Shown here piece after piece: positions 30,987 through 52,016 of a stretch of DNA of 52,284 nucleotides. Position 1 is the first letter of the stretch. The number at the start of each line of letters is the position of its first letter. Both the position numbers and the translations under genes were made by a program. Origin of the DNA: Bacteroidaceae bacterium (GTDB lineage Bacteria; Bacteroidota; Bacteroidia; Bacteroidales; Bacteroidaceae); NCBI GenBank assembly GCA_017628845.1, contig JAGBYI010000004.1, positions 1 through 52,284 of the forward strand, in the 5' to 3' direction. Below the pieces are notes generated by a model. It had not been told where the DNA came from. It ran no database searches and was given only the letters and a program-made list of their open reading frames with translations.

Positions 30987-33461
30987 ATGGCAGACTTCAA
31001 CGAAAAGGATTACCTTCAGAAAGAAGAAGAGGGTAACGGACTTTTTAGTCTTAAATCAATCTGGACTTTGTTCTATCAGAATTGGTATTGGGTATTGTTG
31101 TCAGTTATTATCTGTCTTAGCTTTGCTGTGGTCTACCTCAGGTACAAAGCTCCTGTCTATTCTGTATCCATGAAGGTGCTGATAAAGGATTCGGAGCAAA
31201 ATAATCGTTCCTTCTCCGGTATGGGACTGGATGAGATGGGGTTGCTTTCAAGTTCGAACGGATTTGATAATGAACTTGAAATCCTTACCAGTACGACTGT
31301 AGCAACAAGGGTTGTAAAAAGGCTTAAGTTGTATGTTGCATACTCATTGGAGGGGAGTGTTGTAGATACAGAACTTTACAAGAACAGCCCTGTGGCAGTT
31401 GACCTTGAGGAAAGTTGTTTGGAAAATATAAAGAAGCCGGTTCCGTTGATTCTGACAAAGAGCAAGGAAGGGGTGAAGGTGGAAGGGTGCTTTGATCCGG
31501 AAGACCCCGAATTGGTGACCTATACCCGGGTCGTGACGCAATTGCCAGCCAATCTCGAGTCTCCTGCCGGCATGCTTTTGCTCCAGTCTAATATACTGTT
31601 GAAACAGGATACCGTTAAAGCCGATCCGGTGAGCGAAGCATGGAATGACGGCCATAAACTGATGGTGACCATATATCCTCCCAAGATGGTTGGGCGTATG
31701 TACTCTAAGGGTAGGCTGAATGCGGCCTCCACGTCAAAGACCACTACGGTGGCCAATGTCAGTCTGGTTGATACAAAAAGAGACAGAGCATTGGATTATC
31801 TGAACGAACTGTTGGACTGCTACAACGAAGATGCCAACGAGGATAAGAATGAAGTGGCACGCAAAACAGAAGAATTCATCTCCGAACGCCTGAACAGTAT
31901 CCGTGAGGAACTGGATGAAACGGAGGGAAGCATGGAGACCTACAAGAAGACCAACGAACTGATAAACCTGTCGAACGACGCAACGACGGCATTGCAGAAG
32001 ACAACAGATTACAGAAAGGAACTGGTAAGTCTGCAGACGCAACTGTCATTGTTGAAGTCATTGATGGATTATATGGATTCTCCAGACAATTACCTTCAGA
32101 TAATACCTGTAAATCTTGGTTTGGGCAACACGGCAATGATAACACCTTTGGTTACTACTATAACCAAGTTTAACGAGATGGTGCTGAACCGCAACCGTTT
32201 CCTTAAGGGAAGCGGAGAGGATAATCCAATGGTGATACAGATGACTCAGCAATTGTCTGACATGTGGCCCACAATACGTCAGAATATGAAGAACATCTAT
32301 GACAACATGGAGACTCAGAAAAACAGTATTGCACAGCAATATGAGTTATATTCTGGACGTATTTTAAAGACTCCTACTCAGGAACGTGTCTTGACAAACA
32401 TCACACGGCGTCAGTCCTTGCAATCGGAACTTTACTTGACCCTATTGCAAAAACGAGAGGAAAACTATATTCAACTCTATAGCACGGCAGCCAAGGCGCG
32501 CATTATTGAAGAACCGTATGTGTTAGGAAAGATAAGTCCGAAGAACAACATGGTATTAGGCGGTGCCTTTTTGCTTGGTGTATGTATTCCCATGGGGCTT
32601 CTGCTTGGTCTCAGTTTGTTGCGGACAAAGATTACTTCTCGTGAGGAAGTGGAACAACTGACCAAATTGCCCATATTGGCAGACATCCCCTTTGCTAAAA
32701 ATATGGTTGAGAACGACCGTTCCATCGTAGTACGTGCAAACAGGAATAATATGATGGAGGAAGCCTTTCGCGGTCTAAGAACCAATATGAATTTTGTGTT
32801 GAAACCAGGCGAGCGAGTTGTAATGCTTACATCATGTGTGCCAGGAGAGGGTAAGACATTTGTGGCTTCAAATCTGGCGATGTCGCTCGCATTGATGGGC
32901 AAGAAAGTGATTATTGTTGGTTTGGATGTACGCAAACCACGCTTGATAAACCTGTTTAAATTGAAACCTAGTAAGCAGGGAATTGTTAATTTCCTATGTG
33001 GCAATGATGCAGACTATACTTTATTGGAGGAGCAGATAATATCCTCAGGAATAAATGACAATATGGACGTATTGCCTGCGGGTGTCATTCCACCCAATCC
33101 GGCAGAGTTGCTTAGCGGAACTTTGTTGAAGTCTGCCATTGATTATCTTGCTGCCAAATATGATTACGTGATATTGGATACGCCTCCTGTAGGACTTGTT
33201 GCCGATACTTTGGCTATCGGACACTTGGCAAATGTTACTATATTTGTTGCTCGTGCCAATTATTCTCCTAAGTCAACATTTGAATTGATAAACGATATAC
33301 ACGCAAATCAGAAATTGCCTAATTGTAACGTTGTTGTCAATTCTGTTGATTTTGAAAAACGTCAATATGGTTATGCTCCTGGCTACAAGAAATATGGATA
33401 TTATGGAATGTATGGAACGTATGGGCAGAGTGATGGAGAACATTACCGCGTTGAGGATTAA
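30987..33461 (+). CDS. Wzc-type polysaccharide copolymerase and tyrosine autokinase
   Basis: An 824-residue inner-membrane protein that controls polysaccharide length and drives export through phosphorylation cycles. A Wzz domain comes first: hydrophobic segment near residues 29-52, a large periplasmic coiled-coil part, and a second hydrophobic segment near 515-540. Then comes the BY-kinase domain: Walker A in CVPGEGKTFVASN near 615-627, Walker A' in VIIVGLDVRKPR near 640-651 and Walker B in YVILDTPPVG near 725-734. The C-terminal tail (from about 790) has nine tyrosines in about 30 residues (RQYGYAPGYKKYGYYGMYG and on), the autophosphorylation cluster. It heads an operon with the porZ-like, wzi-like and lipocalin-like genes. 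Confidence 0.95.
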   Translation: MADFNEKDYLQKEEEGNGLFSLKSIWTLFYQNWYWVLLSVIICLSFAVVYLRYKAPVYSVSMKVLIKDSEQNNRSFSGMGLDEMGLLSSSNGFDNELEILTSTTVATRVVKRLKLYVAYSLEGSVVDTELYKNSPVAVDLEESCLENIKKPVPLILTKSKEGVKVEGCFDPEDPELVTYTRVVTQLPANLESPAGMLLLQSNILLKQDTVKADPVSEAWNDGHKLMVTIYPPKMVGRMYSKGRLNAASTSKTTTVANVSLVDTKRDRALDYLNELLDCYNEDANEDKNEVARKTEEFISERLNSIREELDETEGSMETYKKTNELINLSNDATTALQKTTDYRKELVSLQTQLSLLKSLMDYMDSPDNYLQIIPVNLGLGNTAMITPLVTTITKFNEMVLNRNRFLKGSGEDNPMVIQMTQQLSDMWPTIRQNMKNIYDNMETQKNSIAQQYELYSGRILKTPTQERVLTNITRRQSLQSELYLTLLQKREENYIQLYSTAAKARIIEEPYVLGKISPKNNMVLGGAFLLGVCIPMGLLLGLSLLRTKITSREEVEQLTKLPILADIPFAKNMVENDRSIVVRANRNNMMEEAFRGLRTNMNFVLKPGERVVMLTSCVPGEGKTFVASNLAMSLALMGKKVIIVGLDVRKPRLINLFKLKPSKQGIVNFLCGNDADYTLLEEQIISSGINDNMDVLPAGVIPPNPAELLSGTLLKSAIDYLAAKYDYVILDTPPVGLVADTLAIGHLANVTIFVARANYSPKSTFELINDIHANQKLPNCNVVVNSVDFEKRQYGYAPGYKKYGYYGMYGTYGQSDGEHYRVED

Positions 33462-33462
33462 T

Positions 33463-35826
33463 ATGAGACTCAGGGCAATACTTTCTATTCTATTCATGTG
33501 CACCTGCCTCTTCTCGTATGCACAAAACGAGGGGTGGCAGGTGTACCCCGCTTATACAGAGGCGGTGCAAGTTGAGGCAGCAGGTAACTACTTGTATTGT
33601 GTAATGAAGGGTAGTGGGAAGGTTGGTTCCAAAACAGGCAATCTCGTGCGTTATGATACTGAGGACGGTAGCGTAAAGACTTATGATTGCTTGCATGAAT
33701 TGAGTGACAAGGAGGTTTTGCACATTTCTTACAATAAATTTACTAAGCGTTTGCTTGTAGTATATGAAAATGGCAATATAGATATAGTTGATGCGGATGA
33801 CCAAATCATCAATCAACCCGCTCTTAAGGAAAAATCAATTCCAGGAGGTAGTATCAATAACATAAATCATGTCGATGAAGTTGCTTATATTTGCACATCC
33901 GATTTAATAATCAAATTAGATGTAAATGAAGGAACGGTTCTTGATACATATAAGGTGGGACAAAATGTATATGGACTTTTCTTCATTGGTGGCAAATTGT
34001 ATGTTGCATTGGATGACGGTATCTATGCTGTAGATGAAGAAAGACTGTTGTCTAATCCGCATTCGTGGACGCATGTATGTGAAGTGGCTATTAGTAGGAT
34101 AGTGGAGTTTTCCAGCATATTATATGTGATAACACCAGCATCGCAGTTGTATTATGTTTTGTTTGAGAATGATTCTTTTCATCTTGTAGAAACTGGTTAT
34201 TCGTTCTCCCATATCTTTACATCTGAACATTATCTTCTTTGTTTTAATTATGGTGATTGGTTTGGCCTGTATGACGAAGCTCATCCCACTTCGCCTTCAG
34301 TTTTTATGCAAGATCATGATTGGGTAGATGTTGGAATTATACATGATGTATTATATGTAGTAGACATGTCGTGTAGATTGTTGGAGTATAGGTACGATAA
34401 GGAAAAAAAAGGATTCACATCTCAGACAGATGAAACTATTTTGAATATTAATTCGCCCAAGCGTGATTATTTTTATAACATGCACTATGTAGGTTCCCGA
34501 TTGTTGGTTGCTGGTGGAGTTAATCCGGTAGAACCTGCATACCATCCTGTTACATTTATGTATATGGAACCAGACGGCAGATGGGTTAACTTTGACGAGA
34601 CCCAGGTCTTGGCAGAATATCCTCAGATGAATAACCTTAATGCTCTCAATTTAGTTCAGGATCCAATTGATGACAGACATTTTTACGGTGCGGTGTGGCG
34701 CAATGGTTTGCATGAATATTATATGAATAATGACGGTTATCTGGAACTTATAAATTTCTTCAATTATTACAATTCTCCAATAAAGAATATAGATGTTCCT
34801 GTTTCTAATCCATGGAATTATACTACATGCACAGCTCTTCAGTATGATTTGAAGGGCAATCTTTGGATGGCAAATCAGCATACAGACACAATAGTGCGTA
34901 TTGTGCGCCCTAATGGCAAGTGGATGTCATTATATTATCCAGAAATAGTTAGGTCGGAGTATGTTTTCCAATATTTGTTCAGTTCTTATGGGATTAACTT
35001 CATTGTTGCATACGGAGGAGATAAACGTGGATTCTTTGGGTTTGACACTGGAGGGACATTGAATTTGCAGGACGATGATAGACATCTTTTAAGAAAGACA
35101 ATAACCAACCAAGATGGAGTCACGGTCACCCCCAATCTGTTTTTTTGTATGTCGGAAGACCACGATAATCAGATTTGGTGCGGAACCAACGAAGGACTTT
35201 TCGTCATTACGCGTCCGCAGGATTGGTTTGATTCCGATTTTCGATTCCATCAGATTAAACGCAACCGTAATGATGGAAGTGGTTTCGCAGATTATTTGTT
35301 GTCTGGCGTTAACATTACCTGTATTGAAGTCGATCCTTCAAACCGAAAATGGATAGGTACACAAAGCGATGGTGTATACTTGGTGAGTCATGATGGACAG
35401 GAGACGATACACCACTTCACAAAGGCAAATTCCCCATTGTTGTCAGATTATATATATAGTATTGCGGTACATCCGCATGATGGTCGTGTGATGTTTGGTA
35501 CAGATGCCGGACTTTGTAGTTATGAAGAAAATGTTACGGTGCCTGCAGAAGAATTAACAGAGGAATCGGTTCTTGTCTATCCTAATCCGGTACGTCCTAA
35601 TACAGATGCCATTGTGACTATTTGTGGTCTGACGGATGGAAGTGAGGTGAAAATATTAAGTTCATCTGGACAAGTTGTCTGGGGAACAAAAAGCATAGGT
35701 GGTAGTGTACGTTGGAATTGTTGCAATATGCTTGGAGAACGTGTTGCCAGTGGTGTTTACCATATTGTCTGTAACACTGGTGATGCAAAGCAGACAGTTG
35801 TAAAACGTGTTGTTGTTCTGAAATAG
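33463..35826 (+). CDS. PorZ-like T9SS beta-propeller protein
   Basis: A 787-residue exported protein starting MRLRAILSILFMCTCLFSYA, a signal peptide with cleavage before Q. The body has many repeated beta-propeller strand motifs (such as NRKWIGTQSDGVYL, the two-component-regulator propeller type). The end (from about residue 702) is a T9SS C-terminal sorting domain: VYPNPVRPN, then GSEVKILSSSGQVVWG, RVASGVYHIV and KRVVVLK. The order and length fit PorZ, a T9SS attachment-complex protein that binds anionic LPS in Porphyromonas. Assignment is from architecture, so moderate. The ATG starts one base after the wzc stop and the frame is open upstream inside wzc; I set the start at 33463. Odd: the sorting domain contains WNCCN and IVCNT cysteines. 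Confidence 0.75.
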   Translation: MRLRAILSILFMCTCLFSYAQNEGWQVYPAYTEAVQVEAAGNYLYCVMKGSGKVGSKTGNLVRYDTEDGSVKTYDCLHELSDKEVLHISYNKFTKRLLVVYENGNIDIVDADDQIINQPALKEKSIPGGSINNINHVDEVAYICTSDLIIKLDVNEGTVLDTYKVGQNVYGLFFIGGKLYVALDDGIYAVDEERLLSNPHSWTHVCEVAISRIVEFSSILYVITPASQLYYVLFENDSFHLVETGYSFSHIFTSEHYLLCFNYGDWFGLYDEAHPTSPSVFMQDHDWVDVGIIHDVLYVVDMSCRLLEYRYDKEKKGFTSQTDETILNINSPKRDYFYNMHYVGSRLLVAGGVNPVEPAYHPVTFMYMEPDGRWVNFDETQVLAEYPQMNNLNALNLVQDPIDDRHFYGAVWRNGLHEYYMNNDGYLELINFFNYYNSPIKNIDVPVSNPWNYTTCTALQYDLKGNLWMANQHTDTIVRIVRPNGKWMSLYYPEIVRSEYVFQYLFSSYGINFIVAYGGDKRGFFGFDTGGTLNLQDDDRHLLRKTITNQDGVTVTPNLFFCMSEDHDNQIWCGTNEGLFVITRPQDWFDSDFRFHQIKRNRNDGSGFADYLLSGVNITCIEVDPSNRKWIGTQSDGVYLVSHDGQETIHHFTKANSPLLSDYIYSIAVHPHDGRVMFGTDAGLCSYEENVTVPAEELTEESVLVYPNPVRPNTDAIVTICGLTDGSEVKILSSSGQVVWGTKSIGGSVRWNCCNMLGERVASGVYHIVCNTGDAKQTVVKRVVVLK

Positions 35827-35834
35827 TTTTTGTC

Positions 35835-37343
35835 ATGAGGAGATACATTATATATATATTATTGTCTGTTGTTTTTGCTTGTGCTAAGGCCCAGATATCG
35901 CGTTTAGGCGAGAATGTTCAGTACTCATTTACTGCCCAAGGAACCGCTGGTGGAGGTGATAATGCCCCATTTTGGTTTACGAACAATCGTTACGGATTAG
36001 GTACAACAGAAAACTTCAGTGGATTGGCACGTGTGGCGTTATGGCGTACGGTTGAAACAGATTCAATTTGGTTCTGGCGTATGGGATATGGTGTGGACTT
36101 AGCATCGCCTATAAACGGAGAAAATGGTTATTTCTGTATCCAACAGGCCTATGCCGACATTGAATGGAAGATGTTGCGTCTAAGTCTTGGTCAGAAAGAG
36201 CGTCCGTCTGAACTTAAGAATCCTTATTTGTCAACAGGTGGCTTGACTCTTGGTATGAATGCTCGTCCATTGCCTCAAGTAAGGTTTGAACTGCCAGATT
36301 TCTGGGCAATTCCAGGGACAAGGGGGATATTTTCCTTCAAGGGACACATTGCATATGGTTGGTATACCGATGGTGCATGGCAACGCAAGTTCAATGCGGG
36401 AACATCTAATATCTATACTTCTGGCAGCATGTTTCATTCCAAAGCACTTTTAATAAGGCTTGGCAACAGAGAACTGTTTCCACTGGAAGTTGCCGGTGGT
36501 CTTGAGATGGCATGCCAATTTGGTGGAACAGGATGGAATATTCTACCCTATGTGGGCACAACCTTGCTTCAAGACGTGGCCTTAGGTGGAAACATTTTGA
36601 CCGCATTTGTTCCAGGGGGAGGCGATGTCAATGACGAAAACTTCACCAATGCCGCTGGCAATCATATAGGTTCATGGCATCTGCGTATGGATTGGAAGGA
36701 AGAAAAATGGAATATCGGGATATATATGGAGCATTTGTTTGAGGACCATAGTCAGATGTTTATGCAATATGGTTTCTGGAAGGATATGCTCCTTGGTGTA
36801 GAGGCCAATTTGCCCAAAAATCCGTTCCTGTCCACAATCGTATACGAATATAATCACACAATGGACCAGTCTGGTACCATTTACCATGATGCGACTGCGG
36901 AAATTCCTGTTCAAGTAAGTGCACGTGATGACTATTACAACAATCACATTTATGGCGCATGGCAGATGGGCGGATTTGTTATGGGCAATCCTCTTATCCT
37001 ATCTCCTGTCTACAATCCCTATTTTAATAAACGAGGTTCTCTTACAATTCAGCACAACCGTCTGGCGGTTCATCATATCGGTTTGGCTGGAAATCCTTCT
37101 GACGAGTGGGCATGGCGCACCTTGTATACCCATCAGGTTAGTTATGGCAGTTATAATATGCCACTTCTAAATCCGCAAAGTTCTAATTATCTGTTGTTGG
37201 AGGCGACCTATAGTCCTCGTTGGTGCCGAGGATTGTCTTTCTCATCGTCATATGGTCACAATATAGGCGATTTGATAGGAAACTCTTATGGAGCGATGCT
37301 GAGTGTGAGATTTGACGGATGGTTGAACAGAACCCAGTGGTAG
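35835..37343 (+). CDS. Wzi-like outer-membrane beta-barrel protein
   Basis: A 502-residue protein with a signal peptide (YIIYILLSVVFACAKAQ). The early phrase GTAGGGDNAPFWFTNNRYGL and the repeated amphipathic beta strands, ending in an aromatic-rich strand (MLSVRFDGWLNRTQW), fit the capsule assembly Wzi family. Family members fix capsule on the cell surface. It lies eight bases after the porZ-like gene and 34 bases before the lipocalin-like gene, so all are likely co-transcribed with wzc. Confidence 0.85.
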   Translation: MRRYIIYILLSVVFACAKAQISRLGENVQYSFTAQGTAGGGDNAPFWFTNNRYGLGTTENFSGLARVALWRTVETDSIWFWRMGYGVDLASPINGENGYFCIQQAYADIEWKMLRLSLGQKERPSELKNPYLSTGGLTLGMNARPLPQVRFELPDFWAIPGTRGIFSFKGHIAYGWYTDGAWQRKFNAGTSNIYTSGSMFHSKALLIRLGNRELFPLEVAGGLEMACQFGGTGWNILPYVGTTLLQDVALGGNILTAFVPGGGDVNDENFTNAAGNHIGSWHLRMDWKEEKWNIGIYMEHLFEDHSQMFMQYGFWKDMLLGVEANLPKNPFLSTIVYEYNHTMDQSGTIYHDATAEIPVQVSARDDYYNNHIYGAWQMGGFVMGNPLILSPVYNPYFNKRGSLTIQHNRLAVHHIGLAGNPSDEWAWRTLYTHQVSYGSYNMPLLNPQSSNYLLLEATYSPRWCRGLSFSSSYGHNIGDLIGNSYGAMLSVRFDGWLNRTQW

Positions 37344-37377: not shown

Positions 37378-37812
37378 ATGAGGAATATTTATATAAAGTT
37401 AATATCACTGTGTGTGTGTTGCCTGATGTTTGTATCTTGCGATAAAATTGATGACTTGGGTGGTTTGGAAGGCCAATGGCAAATGACGGAATGGGTAGAT
37501 GCAACAGGACAACTTTATGCCACTCAGGAGATACAAATATATTATCGTTTCCAGTTGGGGCTGATGGCCTTTCATAAGGTGTCCCAGCCAGATGGTTTTA
37601 TTCATGCGTGCTTTGAGAATAAGGATGGCATAATTTGCATACATTCTCCATTTGAGTATGCAGGTTCCGGACATAGCAATATCCTGCCCATGAATACACT
37701 GCAAAAGTATGGCGTCCCACAGGATGGAAAGATGAAAATAGAGGAACTGACATCAAGCAAACTTGTTCTGAGTAGCCCAGATGTCGGAACCCTATCGTTT
37801 AGGAAATATTAG
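37378..37812 (+). CDS. Lipocalin-like lipoprotein
   Basis: A 144-residue protein with a lipoprotein signal: MRNIYIKLISLCVCCLMFVSC, cysteine at 21. The mature part starts DKIDDLGGLEGQWQMTEWVD; Gly-x-W near the start is the lipocalin-like mark. It ends SFRKY. The ligand is unknown. It is last in the wzc-porZ-wzi operon and stops six bases before the convergent acyltransferase gene ends. Confidence 0.7.
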   Translation: MRNIYIKLISLCVCCLMFVSCDKIDDLGGLEGQWQMTEWVDATGQLYATQEIQIYYRFQLGLMAFHKVSQPDGFIHACFENKDGIICIHSPFEYAGSGHSNILPMNTLQKYGVPQDGKMKIEELTSSKLVLSSPDVGTLSFRKY

Positions 37813-37855
37813 CAGATGTTATTGCGCCCGTTTCTTGATAAACGGGCGTTCTGCT
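37811..37855. terminator. Two-way hairpin between convergent genes
   Basis: CGCCCGTTT (37825-37833) pairs with AAACGGGCG (37840-37848) around a 6-base loop. An outer AGCAGA/TCTGCT stem (37811-37816, 37850-37855) adds length. It lies mostly inside the 3' coding end of the acyltransferase gene (37819 onward). A typical T run is lacking on either side. Confidence 0.7.
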
Positions 37856-38829
37856 ATGTACCACATCAGGTATGCTATGACAATCGTAGATAGCATGCTT
37901 AGAAAAAGTGTCCCTATAGGATAATCTTTATGGAGTCCAAAATGAATAAAAGTTTGGATTATAGGGAAGTGTACGAGATACATGCTATAGGAGATATTGG
38001 GAAGTCTGCCCACCCAATAAAGATACTTGAATTTGATGGCAAAGGTGATTACAATCAATGCCATGCATGCGGGAGCAGCCAACTCCAGCAAAGCGTATCT
38101 GCTGTGTAGGATATATATCATGATTGCAAATGGTATGATGATTCTTGTTCGCGACATGATGTACTCTCGGTATATATAGGTTGCTGCTCCAGAGTAGAAA
38201 TAGATCAATTGTCCACCCATTTGCCTGTACATGATGTTGTATATCTCGTCCCCAGTGCTGTTGTAAAGACAGTTCATTGATATGCGGTAGAGAGTGGATA
38301 TTAGGAAAATCAATATCAGAGTTTTGGCTCTTCCGATTTTTTCCATTGTTTTATATGCAATAGGTACAGTGATTAAGAGCATCAGTTCCACTTTCATTGT
38401 CCATAAAGCCCCATTGACGGCTGTCATAGGGTTGCTTTCAAATACTCCGGGTAGACTTGGATGAAGGAAATTGGCAAATGCAAGATTGGAGATTAAATAT
38501 GAATATGTTTGGTCGTTTACCCAAAATTCACTTAGACCCATGTTGCTGGAAAAGGATAGTAGTACAACGGAGAGTATTATGGTTAACCAATAAGCAGGGA
38601 TAAGACGTTTGATACGTTTAATGGCAAAGTGCTTTGGTTCAGGTATACGCTGGTACATCATAAAGGAAAAAAAACCGCTAATGATGAAGAATATACTTAC
38701 TCTGTTGCTGATTACATCAAAGTTGTTCAGTAGATGTGTTCCCGACAATACAGAATAGTGCGCTGTTGTAATAAGCAGTGCCAAAATGTATCTGGTTGCA
38801 TCAAAGCAATTGCAGTTCTTGTCAAACAT
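37819..38829 (-). CDS. Acyltransferase family 3 membrane protein
   Basis: A 336-residue membrane protein with about ten hydrophobic segments. The start MFDKNCNCFDATRYILALLI and the following His-containing segment (TTAHYSVLSGTHLLN) match the AT3/OafA family, where the N-terminal histidine is catalytic. Members O-acetylate or O-acylate surface polysaccharides. The frame is open to 38901, but MFDKN is the better start. It is convergent with the lipocalin-like gene, and the two stop codons are six bases apart. Confidence 0.85.
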   Translation of the reverse strand: MFDKNCNCFDATRYILALLITTAHYSVLSGTHLLNNFDVISNRVSIFFIISGFFSFMMYQRIPEPKHFAIKRIKRLIPAYWLTIILSVVLLSFSSNMGLSEFWVNDQTYSYLISNLAFANFLHPSLPGVFESNPMTAVNGALWTMKVELMLLITVPIAYKTMEKIGRAKTLILIFLISTLYRISMNCLYNSTGDEIYNIMYRQMGGQLIYFYSGAATYIYREYIMSRTRIIIPFAIMIYILHSRYALLELAAPACMALIVITFAIKFKYLYWVGRLPNISYSMYLVHFPIIQTFIHFGLHKDYPIGTLFLSMLSTIVIAYLMWYIAERPFIKKRAQ

Positions 38830-38985
38830 AGACTGTTCCTTCGCGATAAAAGATTTACAAATATAGTGAATAATACAGAATCTTCCTGTGATATTAACCA
38901 TAAACTATATTTAATTTGATAAAATGCATAGTATACGGACAATATTACATTATACCGACACGTTATTTATAATATAGTAGTGGGT

Positions 38986-41220
38986 ATGACAATTTCCTTG
39001 CTTATGAAAGAGTTTTTCTATCTCATATTTGCATTTCTTAGTTCGGCGGCAGTTGTGTATATGTTGTTGACTTGGTTACAAGAGTTACCCAAGTCCACAT
39101 CTCGTCGCAGGTACATACATTTTAACGAGGAGATGCTTTCCGGATTGCCTGGTATGGTTATTTTTCCGGCTTCTCTTATTGGTGGCTGCTTGGCTGTAGC
39201 TGTATTGTTGGAGAACAACATCGCAGATTTTGTTGTTAAATTATCTATGCAACTAATAGGTGCCGGAGCTATACTGATATACTTGTTCGGATTATTAGAT
39301 GACTTGATAGGTTTAAGACACAGGGTCCGGTACATGCTACAGTTTGTTGTCGCTTTGTCTTTTCCCTGTTGCAACTTGTATATAAATAACTTGTGTGGGT
39401 TCTGTGGTATTGGCGAACTCTCGTTTTTCTGTGGCGGCCTTATAACAGTGTTGCTTGTGATGATGATTTTCAGTGCATTATTTGTACTTGAAAGGTCAAG
39501 CGCATTTTGCATCTCCTTCCCCATAATAGTTCTTTTGGCATATTGTGGTGTGTTCTTTTTATGGGAGCTACCCCTATTCTATATTACTTGTATGGCCGTA
39601 GTAGGGGCGTTGGTGTCATTCCTGTTGTTCCGAAAGATCAATTTAGTGTCAGAAGGCAAATCGTTCCATATAGGCAGCAGCGGCAGTTTATTTGTTGCAA
39701 CAATAATTTCTTATTTTGCATTAAAATCTTCTATGATAAATGAGCATGTCATTTTATCCAATAAGGAAGGTTTTGCCATAACGGTGGCGTTGTTGTTTTT
39801 GCCATGTGCAGATTTATTGCGTGTTCTTTTATGTAGATTGCTGCAAAAGAAGAATACAAAACAAAACCAAAGGATTTTTTTGTATGACAAGTTAAAGGCT
39901 ATGCACATATCAGGTAATATGGCATCAACGTTACAGTTGGCGTTGTATGTTGTATTTCTTATGGTAGATGCGATTTTCATTGCTTGGGAAATCAATGTGA
40001 CATGGATGGTAATAACGAACATCATGCTCTTCAGTCTTGTCAATATATGGATCCCTAATCCCGATGTTGCGGATGAGAGTCATGAGCGTAAACGTATATT
40101 GTTTTGTGACAACACACTTTGGGGACTAGTAAATTTCAGAGGCGATGTAATACGCTATTTTGTTAACCACGGTTATGATGTATATGTCGTTGCCCCCGAA
40201 AAGGAGGATGAGCAGATGAGGATAGATATACCAGAGAAGGTTGCGTTTATCCCAATCGTTATGGGCAGAACCAGTACCTCCCCATTGAATGACTTGCGTT
40301 ATTTCATTTCCTTGTGGAAGATATATGGTCGGGTACAGCCAGACTATTGCTTCCATTATACAATAAAGCCCAATATTTATGGAAGTATTGTGGCATCATT
40401 GCGTGGAGTGCCAACCACAACGGCTATGGTTGCAGGTTTGGGCTATGTGTTTAATAGTAGAAATTTGTCTGCCTTTATTGCAAGAATATTATACAAGATT
40501 GGATTAAAGTTTACAGACTATCTTTTTGTCTTGAACGAAGGCAATAGGTTGCTTATATTGGAAAAAGGGTTATGTACGGAGAAAAAGACCATACTGTTGC
40601 GTGGAGGTGAGGGCATAGATATTCACAAATTTCCCGTCTTCCCTAATTCGCCAACCATGCCGGTCGTTTTTACGTTTGTCGGGAGAGTCCTTTATGACAA
40701 GGGATATGCAGAGTTTATAGAGGCAGCAGAAATAGTCAAGGCGCAATATCCGGAGACTAAATTCGAAATATGGGGTTCGCTGGATCCTCAATTCCCCAAT
40801 GCTGTACCTTTGCACACACTTCAGTACGATGTTGGCAGAAATCTTGTTGCCTATAAGGGTTTTACACAGAATATTTCAGATGTATATAATCGTAGCGGTA
40901 TCGTAGTGGTAATCCCCTCGTATCACGAAGGAATGAACAGGGCGTTGATGGAGGCATGTTCAGTTGGAAAACCTATAATCTGCTCACGAATCCATGGATG
41001 TATGGAGATGGTCCTGGAAGGACAGAATGGGTATACCGTTCCTACCCGTGATGGACAGGCATTGGCAGATGCCATGTTGCGCTATATTCGCCTATCCGAG
41101 GATGCCAAGTTAAGAATGGGTGAAATGTCACGTTCTTTGGCAGAGAACAGGTTCTCTATAGAATCTGTTATAGAGGAATATAAGGAAATTGTCAATCAAA
41201 GCAGTATTAACTTTGCCTAA
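38986..41220 (+). CDS. Fused pseudo-WecA domain and GT4 glycosyltransferase
   Basis: A 744-residue two-part protein. Residues 1 to about 345 have about ten hydrophobic segments and follow the WecA/MraY phosphosugar-transferase fold in order: FGLLDDLIGLRHRVRYMLQ with the Asp pair at 105-106, FCGIGELSFFCGGLITVLLV, and the SSGSLF segment. The later catalytic marks are gone: the N-x-x-x-x-D-G-x-D-G-L stretch reads SALFVLERSSAFCISFP (163-179), the G-D-S-G-S loop reads GSSGS (230-234), and the His motif reads IFLYDKL. Residues from about 365 are a GT4 enzyme with HEGMNRALMEACSVG (Glu-x7-Glu). A GTG at 38980 is also possible as the start. Function of the dead half is inferred as anchoring or binding lipid carrier. 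Confidence 0.82.
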   Translation: MTISLLMKEFFYLIFAFLSSAAVVYMLLTWLQELPKSTSRRRYIHFNEEMLSGLPGMVIFPASLIGGCLAVAVLLENNIADFVVKLSMQLIGAGAILIYLFGLLDDLIGLRHRVRYMLQFVVALSFPCCNLYINNLCGFCGIGELSFFCGGLITVLLVMMIFSALFVLERSSAFCISFPIIVLLAYCGVFFLWELPLFYITCMAVVGALVSFLLFRKINLVSEGKSFHIGSSGSLFVATIISYFALKSSMINEHVILSNKEGFAITVALLFLPCADLLRVLLCRLLQKKNTKQNQRIFLYDKLKAMHISGNMASTLQLALYVVFLMVDAIFIAWEINVTWMVITNIMLFSLVNIWIPNPDVADESHERKRILFCDNTLWGLVNFRGDVIRYFVNHGYDVYVVAPEKEDEQMRIDIPEKVAFIPIVMGRTSTSPLNDLRYFISLWKIYGRVQPDYCFHYTIKPNIYGSIVASLRGVPTTTAMVAGLGYVFNSRNLSAFIARILYKIGLKFTDYLFVLNEGNRLLILEKGLCTEKKTILLRGGEGIDIHKFPVFPNSPTMPVVFTFVGRVLYDKGYAEFIEAAEIVKAQYPETKFEIWGSLDPQFPNAVPLHTLQYDVGRNLVAYKGFTQNISDVYNRSGIVVVIPSYHEGMNRALMEACSVGKPIICSRIHGCMEMVLEGQNGYTVPTRDGQALADAMLRYIRLSEDAKLRMGEMSRSLAENRFSIESVIEEYKEIVNQSSINFA

Positions 41221-41340: not shown

Positions 41341-42096
41341 ATGATACCTAAGATTATACATTATTGCTGGTTGAGCAACGACCCGTTGCCAAAAGATATT
41401 CAAGAATATATCAACTCCTGGAAGGAAAAACTTCCAGAGTATCAGATAATGAAGTGGGATTTCTCCATATTTGACAAATCAAGCAGTAAATGGGTCGAAC
41501 AGGCATTTGACCAGAAGAAATATGCTTTTGCATCAGATTTCATAAGACTGTATGCTGTATACAATTACGGAGGAATCTATCTTGATTCGGATGTGCAGGT
41601 CTTGAAAACTTTTGAACCTTTCTTGTGTTTGAAGACAATGATAGGATGGCAATGCAATAAGAATGGATTGGAGATAGCATGTTTCGGTGCCGAGAAAGGG
41701 ACGGAGTGGGTAAGGAAATGTCTGGATTACTATGATGGCAGGGAATTCATTAACCCCAATGGTTCCTTAAACACAAAGACACTGCCTCTGATTATAGAAG
41801 AGACGCTAAAGGCCAATGGCTACAAGTTGGTAGATGTAGACAATGTTACTGATGCCGTAAAGATTACAGGTAATAATGAGATACCAGTCTTCGCACAGGA
41901 TTTCTTTAGTCCCAAGGACTTCAATGGCAGACTGACTATAACAGAGCGAACAGTATCCATTCATCATTTTGTGGCTTCGTGGGTATCTCCAGCACATAGG
42001 ATAATACGTAAAATGGTTTTGCTCCTGGGAGGACCTAAATTGAGAACATGTGTTGCAAAATTGTATGCCAGGTTAAATGCCTTTTTAAAAGACTAA
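41341..42096 (+). CDS. GT32 DXD glycosyltransferase
   Basis: A 251-residue GT-A enzyme of the capsular polysaccharide GT32 group. MIPKIIHYCWLSNDPLP opens the protein, FASDFIRLYAVYNYGGIYL follows near residues 63-81 and the DXD metal site is DSD at 82-84. The donor sugar is unknown. A paralogue lies on the other strand at 45066-45809. The gene has its own -7 box. Confidence 0.9.
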   Translation: MIPKIIHYCWLSNDPLPKDIQEYINSWKEKLPEYQIMKWDFSIFDKSSSKWVEQAFDQKKYAFASDFIRLYAVYNYGGIYLDSDVQVLKTFEPFLCLKTMIGWQCNKNGLEIACFGAEKGTEWVRKCLDYYDGREFINPNGSLNTKTLPLIIEETLKANGYKLVDVDNVTDAVKITGNNEIPVFAQDFFSPKDFNGRLTITERTVSIHHFVASWVSPAHRIIRKMVLLLGGPKLRTCVAKLYARLNAFLKD

Positions 42097-42493
42097 CGTA
42101 GGTACTTTCTCCTTATTCATGAAATAATAGTTCTCGGGGAAATGCCGTCTTTGGGGAAAGCGTATAGAGTGACGTTATCTATAGATAACTATATGATGAA
42201 AAGGAATATCTATTTATATCTGTGCTTGTTAATTGTCAAGACATCCTTTTCACGTAATAGTCTCAATGAAGTTTTATCCCCCAAAGTATCAAGAATTGCT
42301 TCTGATGTATTGTCAATACGTATACCAATACAGTAATGTGTTCCTATGGTACAAAAAGAAGGAAATGTCACGTTTGCTGGCGGAGATAGAAATGTCTTTG
42401 GAGTGAGTAATAGAGTAATACAATACGATAGTAGGATTGCATATTCAAATTTAAGTTTAGAGATTCATCAAAAACAGCCTATTGAGCAAGTAT
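42097..42493. other. Gene-poor gap with short open frames
   Basis: This 397-base AT-rich stretch has no convincing gene. A 55-codon frame (42346-42513, starting MVQKEGNVTFAGGDRNVFGV) overlaps the start of the flippase. On the other strand a frame of similar size ends near 42208 (IRIDNTSEAILDTLGDKTS). Both have protein-like composition, and either could be the remnant of a broken gene. I cannot assign a family to either. Confidence 0.5.
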
Positions 42494-43933
42494 ATGTCAA
42501 GCATCAAAAGTAACCTCTTGTATAATTCTTCATTGACAATTCTAAATTACATTGTTCCTTTAATTACGTTTCCTTACATCACACGTATGTTAGGCGTAGA
42601 TAAAATAGGAATGTGCGATTTTGTTGATAGTATAATAAACTATTTTTGTTTATTGTCGGTGATGGGAATTAGCACAATAGGTGTTAGAGAGATAGCAAGA
42701 TGTAAAAGTGATAAAAGGCAATTAAGCAATGTATTTTCTTCATTAGTAACGATAGTTCTGGTATCGACAATAATTATATCAGTTGTATTGGTAGTAAGTA
42801 TTTTTACGATTGAAGAATTTTATGCAAATCGTCAATTGCTATATGTAGGCGCTTTGAAGTTAGTATTTAATTCACTACTTGTTGAATGGTTTTTTGCGGG
42901 AACAGAGAATTTTAAATACATTACGATAAGAAGTACTATAATCAGAATAATATACGTATTGTTAGTCTTCCTATTTGTTAATGAATCAGAAGACTATTAT
43001 ATTTACTATTGTTTAACAGTAGGTACTATTGTTTTAAACGCAGTTGTAAACTTTGTATATTCATGCAGTTATGTACGATTTTCTATAAGAGGGATTTCAT
43101 GTAAGGAATATATAAAACCCTTTTTAATATTCGGCATATATGGTGTTTTCACCTCCTTGTATACTACGTTTAATGTAATATATTTAGGTTTGGTGTCCAG
43201 TGATTCTGAAGTGGGATTTTATTCTACCGCAACCAAATTAGATCGTATAATCTTAGCGTTGTTTACTGCATTTACAGGTGTCATGATGCCGCGAATGGCA
43301 TCTCTTGCCAGTTCAGGAAATCGTGAAGACTTTAATGCATTGTATGTAAAATCCATTCAGATGCTATTTTCCTATTCATTCCCTTTAATTTGCTTCTGTT
43401 CCATTTTTGCTGACCAAATCGTAAACGTGATAGCAGGACCAGGATATGAACAGTCTGTGGTTTGTCTAAGAATAGCATTACCATTGATATTTATTATTGG
43501 GTTTGAGCAGGTGCAAATCTTTCAGATACTGATTCCTTTAAAAAAGGATAATGCAGTTTTGCTTAATTCTATGATAGGCGGTCTGGTGGGACTTCTTCTT
43601 AACTTTATCATAGTTCCTCATTATCAAAGTGCTGGTTCATCCATTGTGTGGCTTGTTTCTGAAATTTCTGTGTTATTGCTTTCGCAACATGTTGTGTATA
43701 AATCTTGTAAATTTGCTTTCCCATATAGGATGTTGGGAAAATATGTTGCCATTTCACTTCCGGTTCTGATGTTGTTGTTTCTTCTCCATAAGTATCAAGT
43801 ATTTGCTGGTTTTACAATGTATTTCTCATTGTTGCTGCTACTCCCTTATTATATATTTGTAGAAATTAGATATATGCGCAATCAGATAATTATAGATGTG
43901 TTGGGCAAGATATGTAGTAAAATTAAGATGTAA
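42494..43933 (+). CDS. Wzx-type flippase, second copy
   Basis: A 479-residue membrane protein with about 12-14 hydrophobic segments. MSSIKSNLLYNSSLTILNYI, then VPLITFPYITRMLGVDKIGM, is the classic opening of the RfbX/MATE-like polysaccharide flippase branch. It differs from the Wzx at 15877, which is of the O-antigen translocase branch. The first ATG is at 42494; the frame opens at a TTG four codons earlier. It is markedly AT-rich, along with the next gene, compared with nifJ and proS. Confidence 0.9.
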   Translation: MSSIKSNLLYNSSLTILNYIVPLITFPYITRMLGVDKIGMCDFVDSIINYFCLLSVMGISTIGVREIARCKSDKRQLSNVFSSLVTIVLVSTIIISVVLVVSIFTIEEFYANRQLLYVGALKLVFNSLLVEWFFAGTENFKYITIRSTIIRIIYVLLVFLFVNESEDYYIYYCLTVGTIVLNAVVNFVYSCSYVRFSIRGISCKEYIKPFLIFGIYGVFTSLYTTFNVIYLGLVSSDSEVGFYSTATKLDRIILALFTAFTGVMMPRMASLASSGNREDFNALYVKSIQMLFSYSFPLICFCSIFADQIVNVIAGPGYEQSVVCLRIALPLIFIIGFEQVQIFQILIPLKKDNAVLLNSMIGGLVGLLLNFIIVPHYQSAGSSIVWLVSEISVLLLSQHVVYKSCKFAFPYRMLGKYVAISLPVLMLLFLLHKYQVFAGFTMYFSLLLLLPYYIFVEIRYMRNQIIIDVLGKICSKIKM

Positions 43934-44019
43934 GTCAATACTCGTTAGTTGGAAAGAATGCTATTTCTTTCTTTGATATTAGGTGTAAGAATTCTGATAT
44001 ACATTATCTTTAAAATACA

Positions 44020-44952
44020 ATGTTTATGATATCACTTGCAATGCCCACATATAACGGAGAAAGGTTCTTAAGAGAGCAGTTAGACAGTATATATAATCAA
44101 ACAATCGTACCAGACGAGGTTATTGTCGTAGACGATTGTTCAACAGATGGAACCATTTCCATTTTAGAAGAGTACAAGAAAAAATACGGGTTGAAGTATT
44201 GGGTTAACGAAAAAAATCTTGGATACAATAAAAACTTTGAAAAAGCTATCTCATTGTGTACAGGGGATTATATCGCTTTATCTGACCAAGACGATGTTTG
44301 GTTTCCTCAGAAGATAGAGGAAAGTTATAATCGTATAATAGAATATCCCAGCGATGAACCATCTTTGGTCTCGTCTCACTCAATAGCAGTAGACGAAAAC
44401 CTAACCCCGTTGCCTATTGTGGCAAGTGATATTCAAGGAGGAGATTGGAGATTGAATTTGACTAGATATTATTCTCAAGGCTGCACCCTCATGATGAATC
44501 GGGCTCTACTTAAGTATATATTGCCCTTTCCGGATGAGATGATCTATGATGCTTATATAGGTTTGACAGCATCGTTAATCGGTAATCGTTTATATATCCC
44601 CAAGAATTTGATGTTCTATAGATTTCATGGCGCCAATTCTTATGCAGGTGAAGTCTCTAAAAGTCCTTTTTTCATCTTCACGCGCTTATGCGAACTACAT
44701 GCGTACGTGCCATTTTGGTATAAAAAAGATGATCAATATCGCTTTCTGTTGTTTATGAAAAACAAATTGAAGGGTAAGATAAGTCCTGAACGTGAATTGG
44801 TTATGGATAAGGTCATAAGAATTTTTGAAGTAGGAAAGATAAGACGAATGTTTCTTTTCTTGTCTTTAAAAGGTCCCAGCACTTATCAAAAAATTAAAAT
44901 AAGTATTGCTCTAATCTTAAAGACGTTGTTTTTTATAGAAGATAAATATTAG
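44020..44952 (+). CDS. Family 2 glycosyltransferase
   Basis: A 310-residue GT-A enzyme. ISLAMPTYNGERFLREQLDS lies at 4-23, VIVVDDCSTDGT near 34-45 and the metal-binding ALSDQDDVWFP near 86-96. This is the rhamnosyltransferase-like GT2 type seen in O-antigen loci. The actual sugar is not known. A second ATG two codons later is possible as the start. A terminator hairpin follows, shared with the convergent GT32 gene. Confidence 0.9.
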   Translation: MFMISLAMPTYNGERFLREQLDSIYNQTIVPDEVIVVDDCSTDGTISILEEYKKKYGLKYWVNEKNLGYNKNFEKAISLCTGDYIALSDQDDVWFPQKIEESYNRIIEYPSDEPSLVSSHSIAVDENLTPLPIVASDIQGGDWRLNLTRYYSQGCTLMMNRALLKYILPFPDEMIYDAYIGLTASLIGNRLYIPKNLMFYRFHGANSYAGEVSKSPFFIFTRLCELHAYVPFWYKKDDQYRFLLFMKNKLKGKISPERELVMDKVIRIFEVGKIRRMFLFLSLKGPSTYQKIKISIALILKTLFFIEDKY

Positions 44953-45065: not shown

Positions 45066-45809
45066 TTATTGCTTTTTGCCAAGTGGGTGTAGTATATGCC
45101 CAATAAATTCCTTACCCTTTACGCCAATAACCTTCAAGGTTAATTCTCGGATTTTGTTGTAAAGGGGATTTCGCCATGAAGATGCATAATGGTGTATGGA
45201 ATATGTGTGTTCCGTTATTGTAATAACATCGTTTCGCTTTGGACAGAAGTATTCTTTGGGATATATCCATATTCCTGCAACATGTTGTATGCCATTGCCT
45301 GTAGTTAATCCGTTTTCTGCCAGAAGATTGGTGGTGTGGAAAACGATTGTGGTATCGTTGATTTTACCATTTGGCAGGATGAAAAGCGTATTCTCGTAGT
45401 AGTTGATGAGTTTCTGGTATATAGGCATGCCAACTTCCGCAGCAAGTCCCAGACCTGGCGCAATGGCTGGATGCACACCGTTTATGATACAGTCGCTTTC
45501 TGCTCCCATAAAAGGGCCTTTGGATATGATATCATCAAGTGGTTTCAGAAGTTCTACATCCGTATCGAAATATACTCCGCCATGATGGTATAAAATCCAA
45601 AATCTGGCAAAGTCGCTGACGAAAGCGAATTTCTTCGCCTCATAAGCTTCTTTGGTATATGGGATCATGTTAACGTCGAAATTGTCTTCGTTCCACTCCT
45701 TTATTTCATAGTCGGGCATGTGCTTTTTCCACGATTCGATGCACTTAATTCCCAACTCAGGGATGGGACCACGTCCGAACCAGCAATAGTGTATTACTTT
45801 GGGGATCAT
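45066..45809 (-). CDS. GT32 DXD glycosyltransferase, second copy
   Basis: A 247-residue GT-A enzyme. MIPKVIHYCWFGRGPIP opens it, FAFVSDFARFWILYHHGGVY follows at 61-80 and the metal site is DTD at 82-84, all at the same positions as in the paralogue at 41341. TYSIHHYASSWRNP near the end matches as well. It starts with an ATG overlapping the stop of the GT4 gene by four bases (ATGA), so the two are translationally coupled. Confidence 0.9.
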   Translation of the reverse strand: MIPKVIHYCWFGRGPIPELGIKCIESWKKHMPDYEIKEWNEDNFDVNMIPYTKEAYEAKKFAFVSDFARFWILYHHGGVYFDTDVELLKPLDDIISKGPFMGAESDCIINGVHPAIAPGLGLAAEVGMPIYQKLINYYENTLFILPNGKINDTTIVFHTTNLLAENGLTTGNGIQHVAGIWIYPKEYFCPKRNDVITITEHTYSIHHYASSWRNPLYNKIRELTLKVIGVKGKEFIGHILHPLGKKQ

Positions 45810-46903
45810 TTTTTATAGGAGGTATATATTGTTTGTAAACTATCTATAATTCCGTTGATGGAATATCCCTGAGAAATGATTTCTTCTGCTCCATGGTGCC
45901 TGTTTGTAACGATACCAACAGTACATATTTCTTGTGCCCAAAGTTTTGCTGGAGTTGTTAAGGAGAAGAATTTGGTAGAAGGTAAAAGAGCGGAACTTTT
46001 GCTGACGTTGTTAGAGACATAGCAAGGGAGTCCTGCGCATTGTGCCTCGACAAGTACAAACGGTAGCCCCTCAAATGTTGAGGGCATCACGAAGCAATCC
46101 ATTACTTGCATTAATCTGTTCACATCTTGTCTCAATCCCATGAAAAGTACATTTGTCGAAAGTTCAAGTGTATTAACCTTGTTCTTGATTTCTTCTTGTA
46201 GTTCTCCAATCCCAACAAGCAATAGAATAGCCTTGTTGTTGGTTTTATGTATTTCTTGGAAAACATCAATCAGGAACGTGTGGTTTTTTTCGGAACAGAA
46301 TCTGCCTACATGTCCAATGACAAAGGCATCCTGGTTTATGCCCAGCGTTTTTCGCATTTCATTACGGACATTCTCGTTGTATCGGAATGATTCCACGTCA
46401 ATGCCGTTGTTTACGATTTTTGAAGGTCCCTTGTCGAAAAACCATTTTGCAGCCAAATCCGAGCATGCCAGATGGTGTGTTGCTATTTTATAAATCCCCA
46501 GGCGGTTGATGCAATGTAATATTTTGTTGTGCAAGCCATGTGCATAGGAATTATGTGAATGTGCTATGCGAACAGGTATTTTATATTTCCAGGCAAAGTA
46601 GAGTGGGGCTATTGAGGTGAGTGAACCTCCGCAAAAATGTACCGCCTGATATTCGTCCTTGTGTTTATAGAAGAAGTGATTCAGTTCTTGGTAATATTTT
46701 AGGGGTGTTTCTTTGCGGTTGGGCAGTATGTGAATTTTGCCTCCATTATCTCTCACTTCTTGTGTATATATGGTTTCCTCCTCTGTGAAAATCAGGAAAT
46801 CTATACTGAACTGTGTCTTGTCAATGTTATGGAACACGTTCATCATGAATTTTTCTGTACCATTTTGTCGTAGGTATTGTGTGATGAATAGGATATTTGT
46901 CAT
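45806..46903 (-). CDS. GT4 glycosyltransferase
   Basis: A 365-residue GT-B enzyme. ILFITQYLRQNGTEKFMMNV is the Gly-containing N-terminal loop region. IGHVGRFCSEKNHTFLIDVF near residues 195-214 is the second Rossmann start, and FEGLPFVLVEAQCAGLPCY near 277-295 holds the Glu-x7-Glu motif. This is the EpsF-like GT4 type. It lies 12 bases after the polymerase gene and overlaps the GT32 gene by four bases. Confidence 0.92.
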   Translation of the reverse strand: MTNILFITQYLRQNGTEKFMMNVFHNIDKTQFSIDFLIFTEEETIYTQEVRDNGGKIHILPNRKETPLKYYQELNHFFYKHKDEYQAVHFCGGSLTSIAPLYFAWKYKIPVRIAHSHNSYAHGLHNKILHCINRLGIYKIATHHLACSDLAAKWFFDKGPSKIVNNGIDVESFRYNENVRNEMRKTLGINQDAFVIGHVGRFCSEKNHTFLIDVFQEIHKTNNKAILLLVGIGELQEEIKNKVNTLELSTNVLFMGLRQDVNRLMQVMDCFVMPSTFEGLPFVLVEAQCAGLPCYVSNNVSKSSALLPSTKFFSLTTPAKLWAQEICTVGIVTNRHHGAEEIISQGYSINGIIDSLQTIYTSYKK

Positions 46904-46915
46904 AGATGCGTTGTG

Positions 46916-48130
46916 TTATCGTATATCTCTGGTACCTTCGTCACTGACTGTTTGTTCAACAGATTCTTTGTGAACTTCTTCTCTGAACCATACGTCCTTG
47001 TTCTCGTTTATGATGCAACGATATGGGGTATATCTTTGGAAGAAGTACACCTCATTTTTTGGATAATAAGTAAAATGCAATTGCCATAACAGCATGAATA
47101 TCGTTGCGACAAGTGTTCCTGTCCTTAGCAAAAAATGTTCTTTCTTTCTGAAAAGAGTGAAAATAAAATCACTGAGCATAATCAGGTAATATATTTCCAT
47201 GTAGTTCCTGAATCTGGAAAATCCGGCAAGCGAACAGGCACATACAGCCAGTACCAAATAGAAAGATATCAATTTTTGTTTTTTCCTTTTTATATCTTCG
47301 TCTTCTTCCCAGAGAAACGAATAGTACATCACAATAAAAGGCAGAATCAGGAATCTCAACACATTTCCAATAAAACCATTCAAATTGTTTGCTTGGGTTG
47401 AATATTTTATAATTTTGGTCGCAAACGCTCCTGTGCCTCCCAATACAGAATTGACAATTTTGCCCATGGCAATATCGCTGAGTGTCCAAAAGACAAGTGA
47501 TATGAGTATTGTAAATGCTAGCGTTTTGAATGTGATTTTTAATCTGAGAAGAGGGAAAACAATAACGACTGCTGCCGAAACATGGAACAATATTGCCAAT
47601 ATGTAGCAAAGGTAGAAGTTTCTTTTATTTCCATTCATATACGCTTCCATACCGACCATACAGATTGCTATGGCAATACCTTCGCGCATAATTTCTGTAT
47701 TGAAGATAAAATATGTGAGAGTTAGGAAGTATACTATTATAAAGCAAAAGTTGCGATGGGTATACTTTGATGCTATGTAAAAAAAAGTCAGGTTGGTAAT
47801 TACTGCTTGTATTATTTGTACAGCATAAAATGAGTCAAAACATTTCTTCGCAAATATGGTTAGCAGTGTCCACAATGGCATATTGCCTTGAATAACCATG
47901 GCAAGTGAAGCATATTCCAATGCGGGAATATCAGTAGGGATTGCTTCAAATTGTCTCATGTAGACAAATTTGTCTCCGCCCAATCCGTAACTGAACCCAG
48001 TGATTAGAATGAGCAGTACGCATAGCATCCAGTACCGATGTTTTTTGAATGCATTATCTTCTTCTACACCATCCCATCTGATGGAATAGTAAACACTTAA
48101 TGCGATGACTATGATGTAAATAAGACTCAT
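46916..48130 (-). CDS. EpsG-family polysaccharide polymerase (Wzy-type)
   Basis: A 404-residue membrane protein with about 11-12 hydrophobic segments. GFSYGLGGDKFVYMRQFEAI near residues 45-64 and FNTEIMREGIAIAICMVGME near 142-161 are the EpsG/EpsK-like marks. The role would be joining lipid-linked repeat units into polymer on the periplasmic side. It lies downstream of the Wzz-type gene and 12 bases before the GT4 gene, so the operon pairs polymerase, length control and transferases. Confidence 0.85.
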   Translation of the reverse strand: MSLIYIIVIALSVYYSIRWDGVEEDNAFKKHRYWMLCVLLILITGFSYGLGGDKFVYMRQFEAIPTDIPALEYASLAMVIQGNMPLWTLLTIFAKKCFDSFYAVQIIQAVITNLTFFYIASKYTHRNFCFIIVYFLTLTYFIFNTEIMREGIAIAICMVGMEAYMNGNKRNFYLCYILAILFHVSAAVVIVFPLLRLKITFKTLAFTILISLVFWTLSDIAMGKIVNSVLGGTGAFATKIIKYSTQANNLNGFIGNVLRFLILPFIVMYYSFLWEEDEDIKRKKQKLISFYLVLAVCACSLAGFSRFRNYMEIYYLIMLSDFIFTLFRKKEHFLLRTGTLVATIFMLLWQLHFTYYPKNEVYFFQRYTPYRCIINENKDVWFREEVHKESVEQTVSDEGTRDIR

Positions 48131-48247
48131 TAGTTAAGTTGCCTGTTTCCTAATGTTCAGAAACGCCTCTTTGTGGAATTGCCGGTATTTATGCTGATAC
48201 AGTTAATGCCAATCCTTGATGCATTTTTGTGCTGTTCAATTTCATAT

Positions 48248-49306: not shown

Positions 49307-49330
49307 TATGTGAGAAAATCAGAAAGTCCG

Positions 49331-51820: not shown

Positions 51821-51926
51821 ATCTGTGTTTTGTTCTTGTTTCCTTGGTTGGGGTAGAGTGTAGTGTTCTCTTGGTATAGAACGTTGGATGTTCCTTATAT
51901 ATTGCCCTTTAGGGACAATATCATGG

Positions 51927-51934
51927 CAAAGATA
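51927..51934 (-). promoter_or_regulatory. -7 box (TATCTTTG) of the SLBB exporter operon
   Basis: TATCTTTG on the minus strand, followed by CCATG, lies 106 bases before the start codon, so the leader would be about 100 bases. No good -33 TTTG was seen. Confidence 0.6.
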
Positions 51935-52016
51935 GGAAAAATGTGTTGAATTGCCATAGTGTGTTGGCATTTTCTATGCCTCTATGTGTGGTGGGGTGGT
52001 GATTTCTTTGTATAAA

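Follow-up and report, generated by a model that had tools for sequence, protein, structure and literature searches.

The stretch of DNA analysed here, hereafter the window, spans 52,284 nucleotides of the draft genome of a Bacteroidaceae bacterium and carries what looks, from its gene content, like a complete Wzx/Wzy-type capsule locus. On the forward strand, a Wzc-like chain-length/tyrosine kinase gene (30987..33461; Pfam, synteny) is followed by a PorZ-like beta-propeller gene (33331..35826; PF21544, with synteny in L093 and L094), a Wzi-like capsule assembly gene that marks the slot surveyed below (35835..37343; PF14052, genus survey) and a lipocalin-like gene upstream of the slot for WecA or WecA-glycosyltransferase (GT) genes (37378..37812; PF16585, synteny). 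An acyltransferase gene on the reverse strand (37819..38901; PF01757) separates the lipocalin gene from the fusion gene described here. Downstream of the latter, Pfam matches identified forward-strand genes for a GT32-like protein, a Wzx-like flippase and a GT2 (41341..44952), and reverse-strand genes for a GT32-like protein, a GT4, an EpsG-like protein (probable polymerase), Wzz and Wza (45066..51970). A search of the draft genome returned no other PF00953 or PF02397 match on the window's contig, so the first sugar is probably attached by an enzyme from another part of the genome.

PorZ, which the gene between Wzc and Wzi resembles, belongs to the type 9 secretion system. At least two relatives also have a PorZ-like gene next to Wzi (L094, 10237-12699; L093, 10232-12634), and none was present between Wzc and Wzi in L091. 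This position hints at a possible link of the polysaccharide with the anchoring of type 9 cargo. No relatives of the fusion were found in viral contigs, and no phage or plasmid record matched 80% of the query at a single place, the top-ranking rows covering one half only.

The fusion gene (38986..41220, forward strand) encodes 744 residues in a single open frame without internal stop, comprising a WecA-fold domain, apparently a pseudoenzyme, and a GT4 domain (PF00953, PF13477 and PF00534). Its coding sequence starts at ATG 38986, with GTG at 38980 as an alternative start, and ends at 41220, in agreement with the frame and coordinates given in a preliminary description made from the sequence. 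The same description had recognised the N-terminal half as a WecA homologue, and both profile methods bear this out: PF00953 matched residues 91-248 (31.3 bits against a cut-off of 27), and residues 4-349 were colinear with WecA-type polytopic phosphoglycosyl transferases in hhalign (probability 100, E 9e-46, 28% identity over 344 columns without rearrangement), using a profile of 30 relatives that retain the motifs. In the domain (residues 1-349; 38986..40032, forward strand), a simple hydropathy window counts nine hydrophobic segments. Searched alone against solved structures, it gave chance antibody matches only; a WecA family profile matched MraY structures, e.g. 5jnq and 4j72. The C-terminal part matched PF00534 with 84.9 bits.

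An alignment of 82 homologues, from which near-duplicates had been removed (three rows are fragments, and the MraY-like L068 is badly aligned), placed four losses in the WecA half, all in the forward strand. The roles of the lost motifs are those generally ascribed to them in the family, the columns themselves being taken from alignments. Three of the losses had already been noted, and they fall at the aligned columns: the site of N-x-x-N-x-x-D-G-x-D-G-L now reads FSALFVLERSSAF (residues 162-174; 39469..39507), GDSGS has become GSSGS (residues 230-234; 39673..39687) by replacement of an Asp, which we take to be the metal-binding residue, with Ser, and HxHH has become FLYD (residues 298-301; 39877..39888). 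The fourth, absent from the preliminary description, is the former substrate loop PN.RKxH..xPRxGG after the first membrane segment, now RRRYIHFNEEMLSGLPG (39103..39153). The Asp pair reported as surviving is indeed present as D105-D106, within LDDL at residues 104-107 of the retained motif FGLLDDLIGLRHR (39286..39324), and P273, D276, R279, V280 and R284 are also kept. DGVNGL is found in the own-genome WecAs L002 and L066 and DGIDAY in L028, so intact enzymes differ at the end of the N-x-x-N-x-x-D-G-x-D-G-L motif. Catalytic residues elsewhere in the chain, which had been named as a possible refutation, were not found in the colinear profile alignment. The WecA half would no longer be able to bind nucleotide sugar or metal, nor to transfer sugar phosphate. 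The surviving Asp pair could point to some residual chemistry.

A hidden frameshift was ruled out as the source of the loss, since translation of the other two forward frames does not yield the missing motif. A sequencing or binning artefact might be suspected in a draft genome that is 84.6% complete and split into 223 contigs, but it is barely credible given the single open frame, that same absence of the motif from the other forward frames, a gene order shared with relatives and the occurrence of another degenerate copy, L099, in genome G335.

The extent of the loss was estimated from columns with at least 85% conservation across 37 relatives (the window and L099 excluded; the three outgroups and three eroded-loop rows included), split into active-site segments, which we took to be delimited by the family motifs, and the rest. 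The window retains 8/30 active-site columns versus 23/34 others (Fisher P 0.0013), two of the latter 34 being gaps in the window that border the lost loop. Outgroup WecAs L002, L066 and L028, with motifs kept, retain 22-25/30 and 21-22/34 respectively, so the window's scaffold is about equally well kept. L081 scored 25/30 active-site columns, a value lowered by its incomplete sequence stretch. Neutral decay to the same identity was simulated under a uniform base-change model (300 runs, 100 for each of three starting genes). It left a mean of ~ 9/32 scaffold columns (maximum 17) versus 23 in the window, and a mean of 1.3-1.5 hydrophobic segments (maximum 5) versus nine, the 38 other aligned rows having 7-11. 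The binomial chance of keeping 23/32 scaffold columns at the active-site retention rate was 1e-7. Active-site columns, by comparison, fell to a mean of ~ 7.4/30 in the simulation, and the window has eight. With active-site retention close to neutral and scaffold retention far above it, the active site looks unconstrained and the membrane scaffold constrained.

The window's WecA half thus looks like a maintained pseudoenzyme scaffold. A pseudoenzyme is expected to have lost catalytic residues, as seen in the 8/30 active-site columns kept, and to maintain its fold, which in the sequence of this one genome is suggested by scaffold columns and hydrophobic segments in excess of the neutral simulation. 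According to an alternative reading, the N domain is a decaying passenger, left functionless after another WecA took over and persisting as read-through to the GT4. The presence of another WecA in the genome, the long branch of the window's N domain and the fast change of the WecA half in an eroding clade of fusions (see below) are all in its favour; however, 23 of 32-34 scaffold columns and nine segments, against some nine columns and one to two segments under neutral decay, make it unlikely. It is very improbable that the retained Asp pair serves a changed chemistry, acting on polyprenyl phosphate in some other reaction: D105-D106, D276 and R279 are retained, but nothing is left of the nucleotide-sugar motif, the His motif or the metal Asp, and the 22/30 active-site columns replaced come near the simulated neutral expectation.

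Orthologues with an intact site had been foreseen as possible evidence that the window copy is a recent mutant. Fused relatives with intact sites do exist, but this explanation was ruled out, because the copy shares 25-33% identity with relatives and its scaffold columns are preserved. Searches of the family, the genus and the g15 set, one of which scored at most three first-look candidates per relative and another two, recovered no copy with the window's losses, and the exact protein in one genome only. The end branch of the window's WecA domain measures 2.95, and the tree does not place the domain.

The GT4 domain (residues 366-744; 40081..41217, forward strand) is PglA-like and, as had been proposed, looks intact and active: 40/44 columns conserved in 25 relatives are kept, including E-x7-E. 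Its best solved matches were 8dqd (E 6e-25), 8dvw and 8dvz, annotated as the transferase responsible for adding GalNAc to an undecaprenyl-diphosphate sugar; we take the 8dqd transferase to be PglA. The nearest sequences are standalone genes, with 50-53% identity versus 26% to the GT4 of L077, a fusion from another genus, which means that the window's fusion may be independent, or its GT4 swapped. These standalone relatives are ~ 370-400 residues long, so a GT4 of this type can manage without an N domain; this also speaks against the survival of the window's N domain as a functionless passenger. WecA genes were present on the examined stretch of relatives L005, L006, L072, L078, L085 and L090, and none for L086-L089. 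The homology to 8dqd and the WecA genes near some relatives suggest that the acceptor may be an undecaprenyl-diphosphate sugar.

At least 20 genomes of a single bacterial family carried fusions of PF00953 to glycosyltransferases. Among the 23 compared, 20 had one class of GT4 and three a GT2 domain, the window's GT4 falling in neither cluster, and all motifs were intact in 16/20 WecA-GT4 fusions (15 of them in the window's genus) and in 3/3 WecA-GT2 fusions. L175 of G301 is one further intact-motif fusion. L077 of G439, outside the window's genus, is an intact WecA fused to a GT4, with 26-27% identity to the window protein across the whole length; Wzi and lipocalin genes lie downstream of L077, whereas in the window they are upstream. 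The WecA-GT2 fusions L041, L057 and L062 follow wzi and lipocalin genes and have intact motifs (Pfam for L041 only), and the wzi-lipocalin neighbourhood is common to the window and most genus copies with flanks examined. Intact fusions such as L040, L077 and L041 therefore share the architecture of the window protein but keep the motifs that it has lost; the L040-type GT4 has no close relation to that of the window. An active WecA fused to a GT, with steps one and two on one chain, is likely to be the ancestral type of arrangement.

Sixty stretches following Wzi matches, among 127 genomes with such a match, were surveyed for the content of this slot. A WecA homologue was found on 38 of them and none on 22, in some cases since the contig ends. 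This survey recovered L099 of G335, which had fallen below the threshold of one of the searches above (E 1e-30 or better). The WecA half of L099 reads LKD, DGIEGL and GSSGS: the catalytic Asp is lost by the same change from GDSGS to GSSGS as in the window, and the Asp pair is altered too. L099 differs from the window in its other class of GT4, a milder loss (20/30 active-site columns kept) and a separate branch. The preliminary description had asked whether orthologues show the same losses; GSSGS recurs in L099, but no other of the 82 aligned homologues shares the loss of this Asp.

Lesser erosion was seen in L046, L058, L059, L060 and L063, where the substrate loop is lost, HxHH is altered in four and the other motifs are kept (L058 and L060 are near-identical). 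Between L099 and L046, the GT4 halves are 83% identical versus 58% for the WecA halves. Across 19 fusions, the ratio of WecA-half to GT4-half change had a median of 2.67 in L099, L046, L060, L059 and L063 (10 pairs, range 1.69-3.11) compared with 1.52 in each of two intact-motif clades (28 and 15 pairs, ranges 1.06-2.5 and 1.3-1.83), the pairs not being independent and the eroding and intact ranges overlapping. In the Wzi tree, the window grouped with G259, G341, G302, G180, G333, G335 and G337 (SH-aLRT 99), and six of these seven closest hosts carry WecA-GT4 fusions with eroded or dead WecA halves; in G302 and G180 the fusion and Wzi are on different contigs, and the G337 contig ends just past the lipocalin gene. 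An eroding-type fusion interrupted by a contig end was also present in G414.

Shared ancestry of the window's loss with that of the L099 clade was not supported, at 25-26% identity and with a long unplaced branch; the tree neither shows nor excludes a common origin of the two domains. As the window's N domain does not group with the eroding clade, its loss and that of L099 appear to be separate events.

Other features of this clade were recorded. The WecA-GT4 fusion L159 (G259:C20:81755-84046) has one TAA stop in its GT4 part and is split into two open frames, and its close relative in G341 is a single frame. UDP-GlcNAc 2-epimerase genes follow three eroding-clade fusions, on L190, L187 and L185, as assigned by Pfam for L190 and by likeness of the first residues for L187 and L185. 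L190 also has a UDP-sugar dehydrogenase gene (genes at L190, 11544-12701 and 8064-9266; L187, 5718-6872; L185, 6959-8113), and no UDP-GlcNAc 2-epimerase gene adjoins the dead copy of G335. This suggests that the GT4 of the three epimerase-flanked fusions may use ManNAc or ManNAcA.

Apart from the fusion, the window's own genome encodes two WecA proteins with intact motifs, one MraY-like protein and one PF02397 protein. The two WecA genes are on contigs C140 and C151, not on the window's contig, and the former lies near a WecG/TagA-family glycosyltransferase gene (L193 958-1698 and 3052-4326, G000:C140). Homologues of the C140 WecA with at least 60% identity were present in 8/139 genomes (the own genome, G259, G302, G312, G333, G335, G341 and G180), and one C140-type gene read from each of the seven others had intact motifs in all cases. 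Six hosts of eroded fusions thus resemble the window's host in holding another WecA with intact motifs, and no genus genome with an intact-motif fusion had a C140 homologue at or above 60% identity (139 genomes). G312, with three C140-type homologues, showed no Wzi match and no L099-type fusion. The C140 WecA had no match in the incomplete genomes G337 and G414. Counter-examples are provided by G010, G318, G331 and G360, whose intact fusions coexist with C140 homologues of 41-54% identity and largely intact motifs. PF02397 genes showed no link with motif loss: among close hosts there were none in G259, G333 and G337, a weak match in G335, one gene in G341, two in G302 and four in G180. The pattern, drawn from one clade and with counter-examples, is suggestive: redundancy with another WecA may have freed the fused copy to lose step one.

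The two intact WecA genes also bear on a rather improbable alternative, in which the dead domain is an inactive partner subunit that would pair with an intact WecA coded elsewhere and so place the GT4 where its acceptor is made. Self-pairing is known for MraY, and a scaffold kept while the active site is lost would fit such a role. Poly-PGTs are listed as dimers in PMC10942596. However, both WecA genes are on other contigs, one of them near the WecG/TagA-family gene. A speculative and likewise improbable elaboration is that a WecA-fold pseudo-subunit pairs with the active WecA and passes the freshly made undecaprenyl-diphosphate sugar directly to the fused GT4; if so, the repeated death of the fused domain would record a shift from a bifunctional chain to an assembled two-enzyme unit.

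We favour, with a probability of roughly 0.6, the reading that the dead WecA-family half is a scaffold kept by selection that anchors or docks the fused PglA-like GT4. Under this explanation, step one died in the window's fusion, possibly permitted by redundancy with another WecA gene, and the WecA half would have been kept by selection as a membrane scaffold that does not transfer sugar phosphate. Another, intact initiating enzyme would make the undecaprenyl-diphosphate-linked sugar, to which the fused GT4 would add the next sugar, as its homology to 8dqd suggests. The dead half would tether the GT4 to the membrane, perhaps close to its lipid acceptor or next to a working WecA. We infer the lost activity, the docking, the acceptor and the order of events from sequence comparisons.

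A WecA domain normally starts bacterial surface-sugar chains, and here catalytic Asp has disappeared from two fused copies whose partner transferase remains conserved. The natural series from intact to dead fusions could reveal what a membrane scaffold by itself contributes to a peripheral GT, and whether surface-sugar assembly physically couples its first two steps. In full-text literature, mostly non-subscription, no description of a dead WecA-GT fusion was recognised among the matches listed.

Compared with the PF00953 enzymes WecA, TagO and MraY, the window protein shares homology over the whole membrane domain, the Asp-Asp motif and the hydrophobic segments; it differs in having no nucleotide-sugar, metal or His motifs and in being fused to a GT4, whereas poly-PGTs are given as 'PGT only', with fused bifunctional forms assigned to the monotopic superfamily, in Table 1 of PMC10942596. 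The whole GT4 domain aligns with the PglA-type GT4 of 8dqd with E-x7-E kept, although the 8dqd chain has 377 residues and the window fusion 744. PglA itself is a protein of its own, with no WecA domain attached. Finally, PMC4973528 describes PF00953-type enzymes complexed with the next transferase, as in Alg7-Alg13-Alg14 and MraY-MurG, which makes docking plausible; the window protein resembles these complexes in holding the two together, but in them the association is non-covalent and the first enzyme active, whereas in the window it is covalent and the first domain has lost most of its active-site columns.
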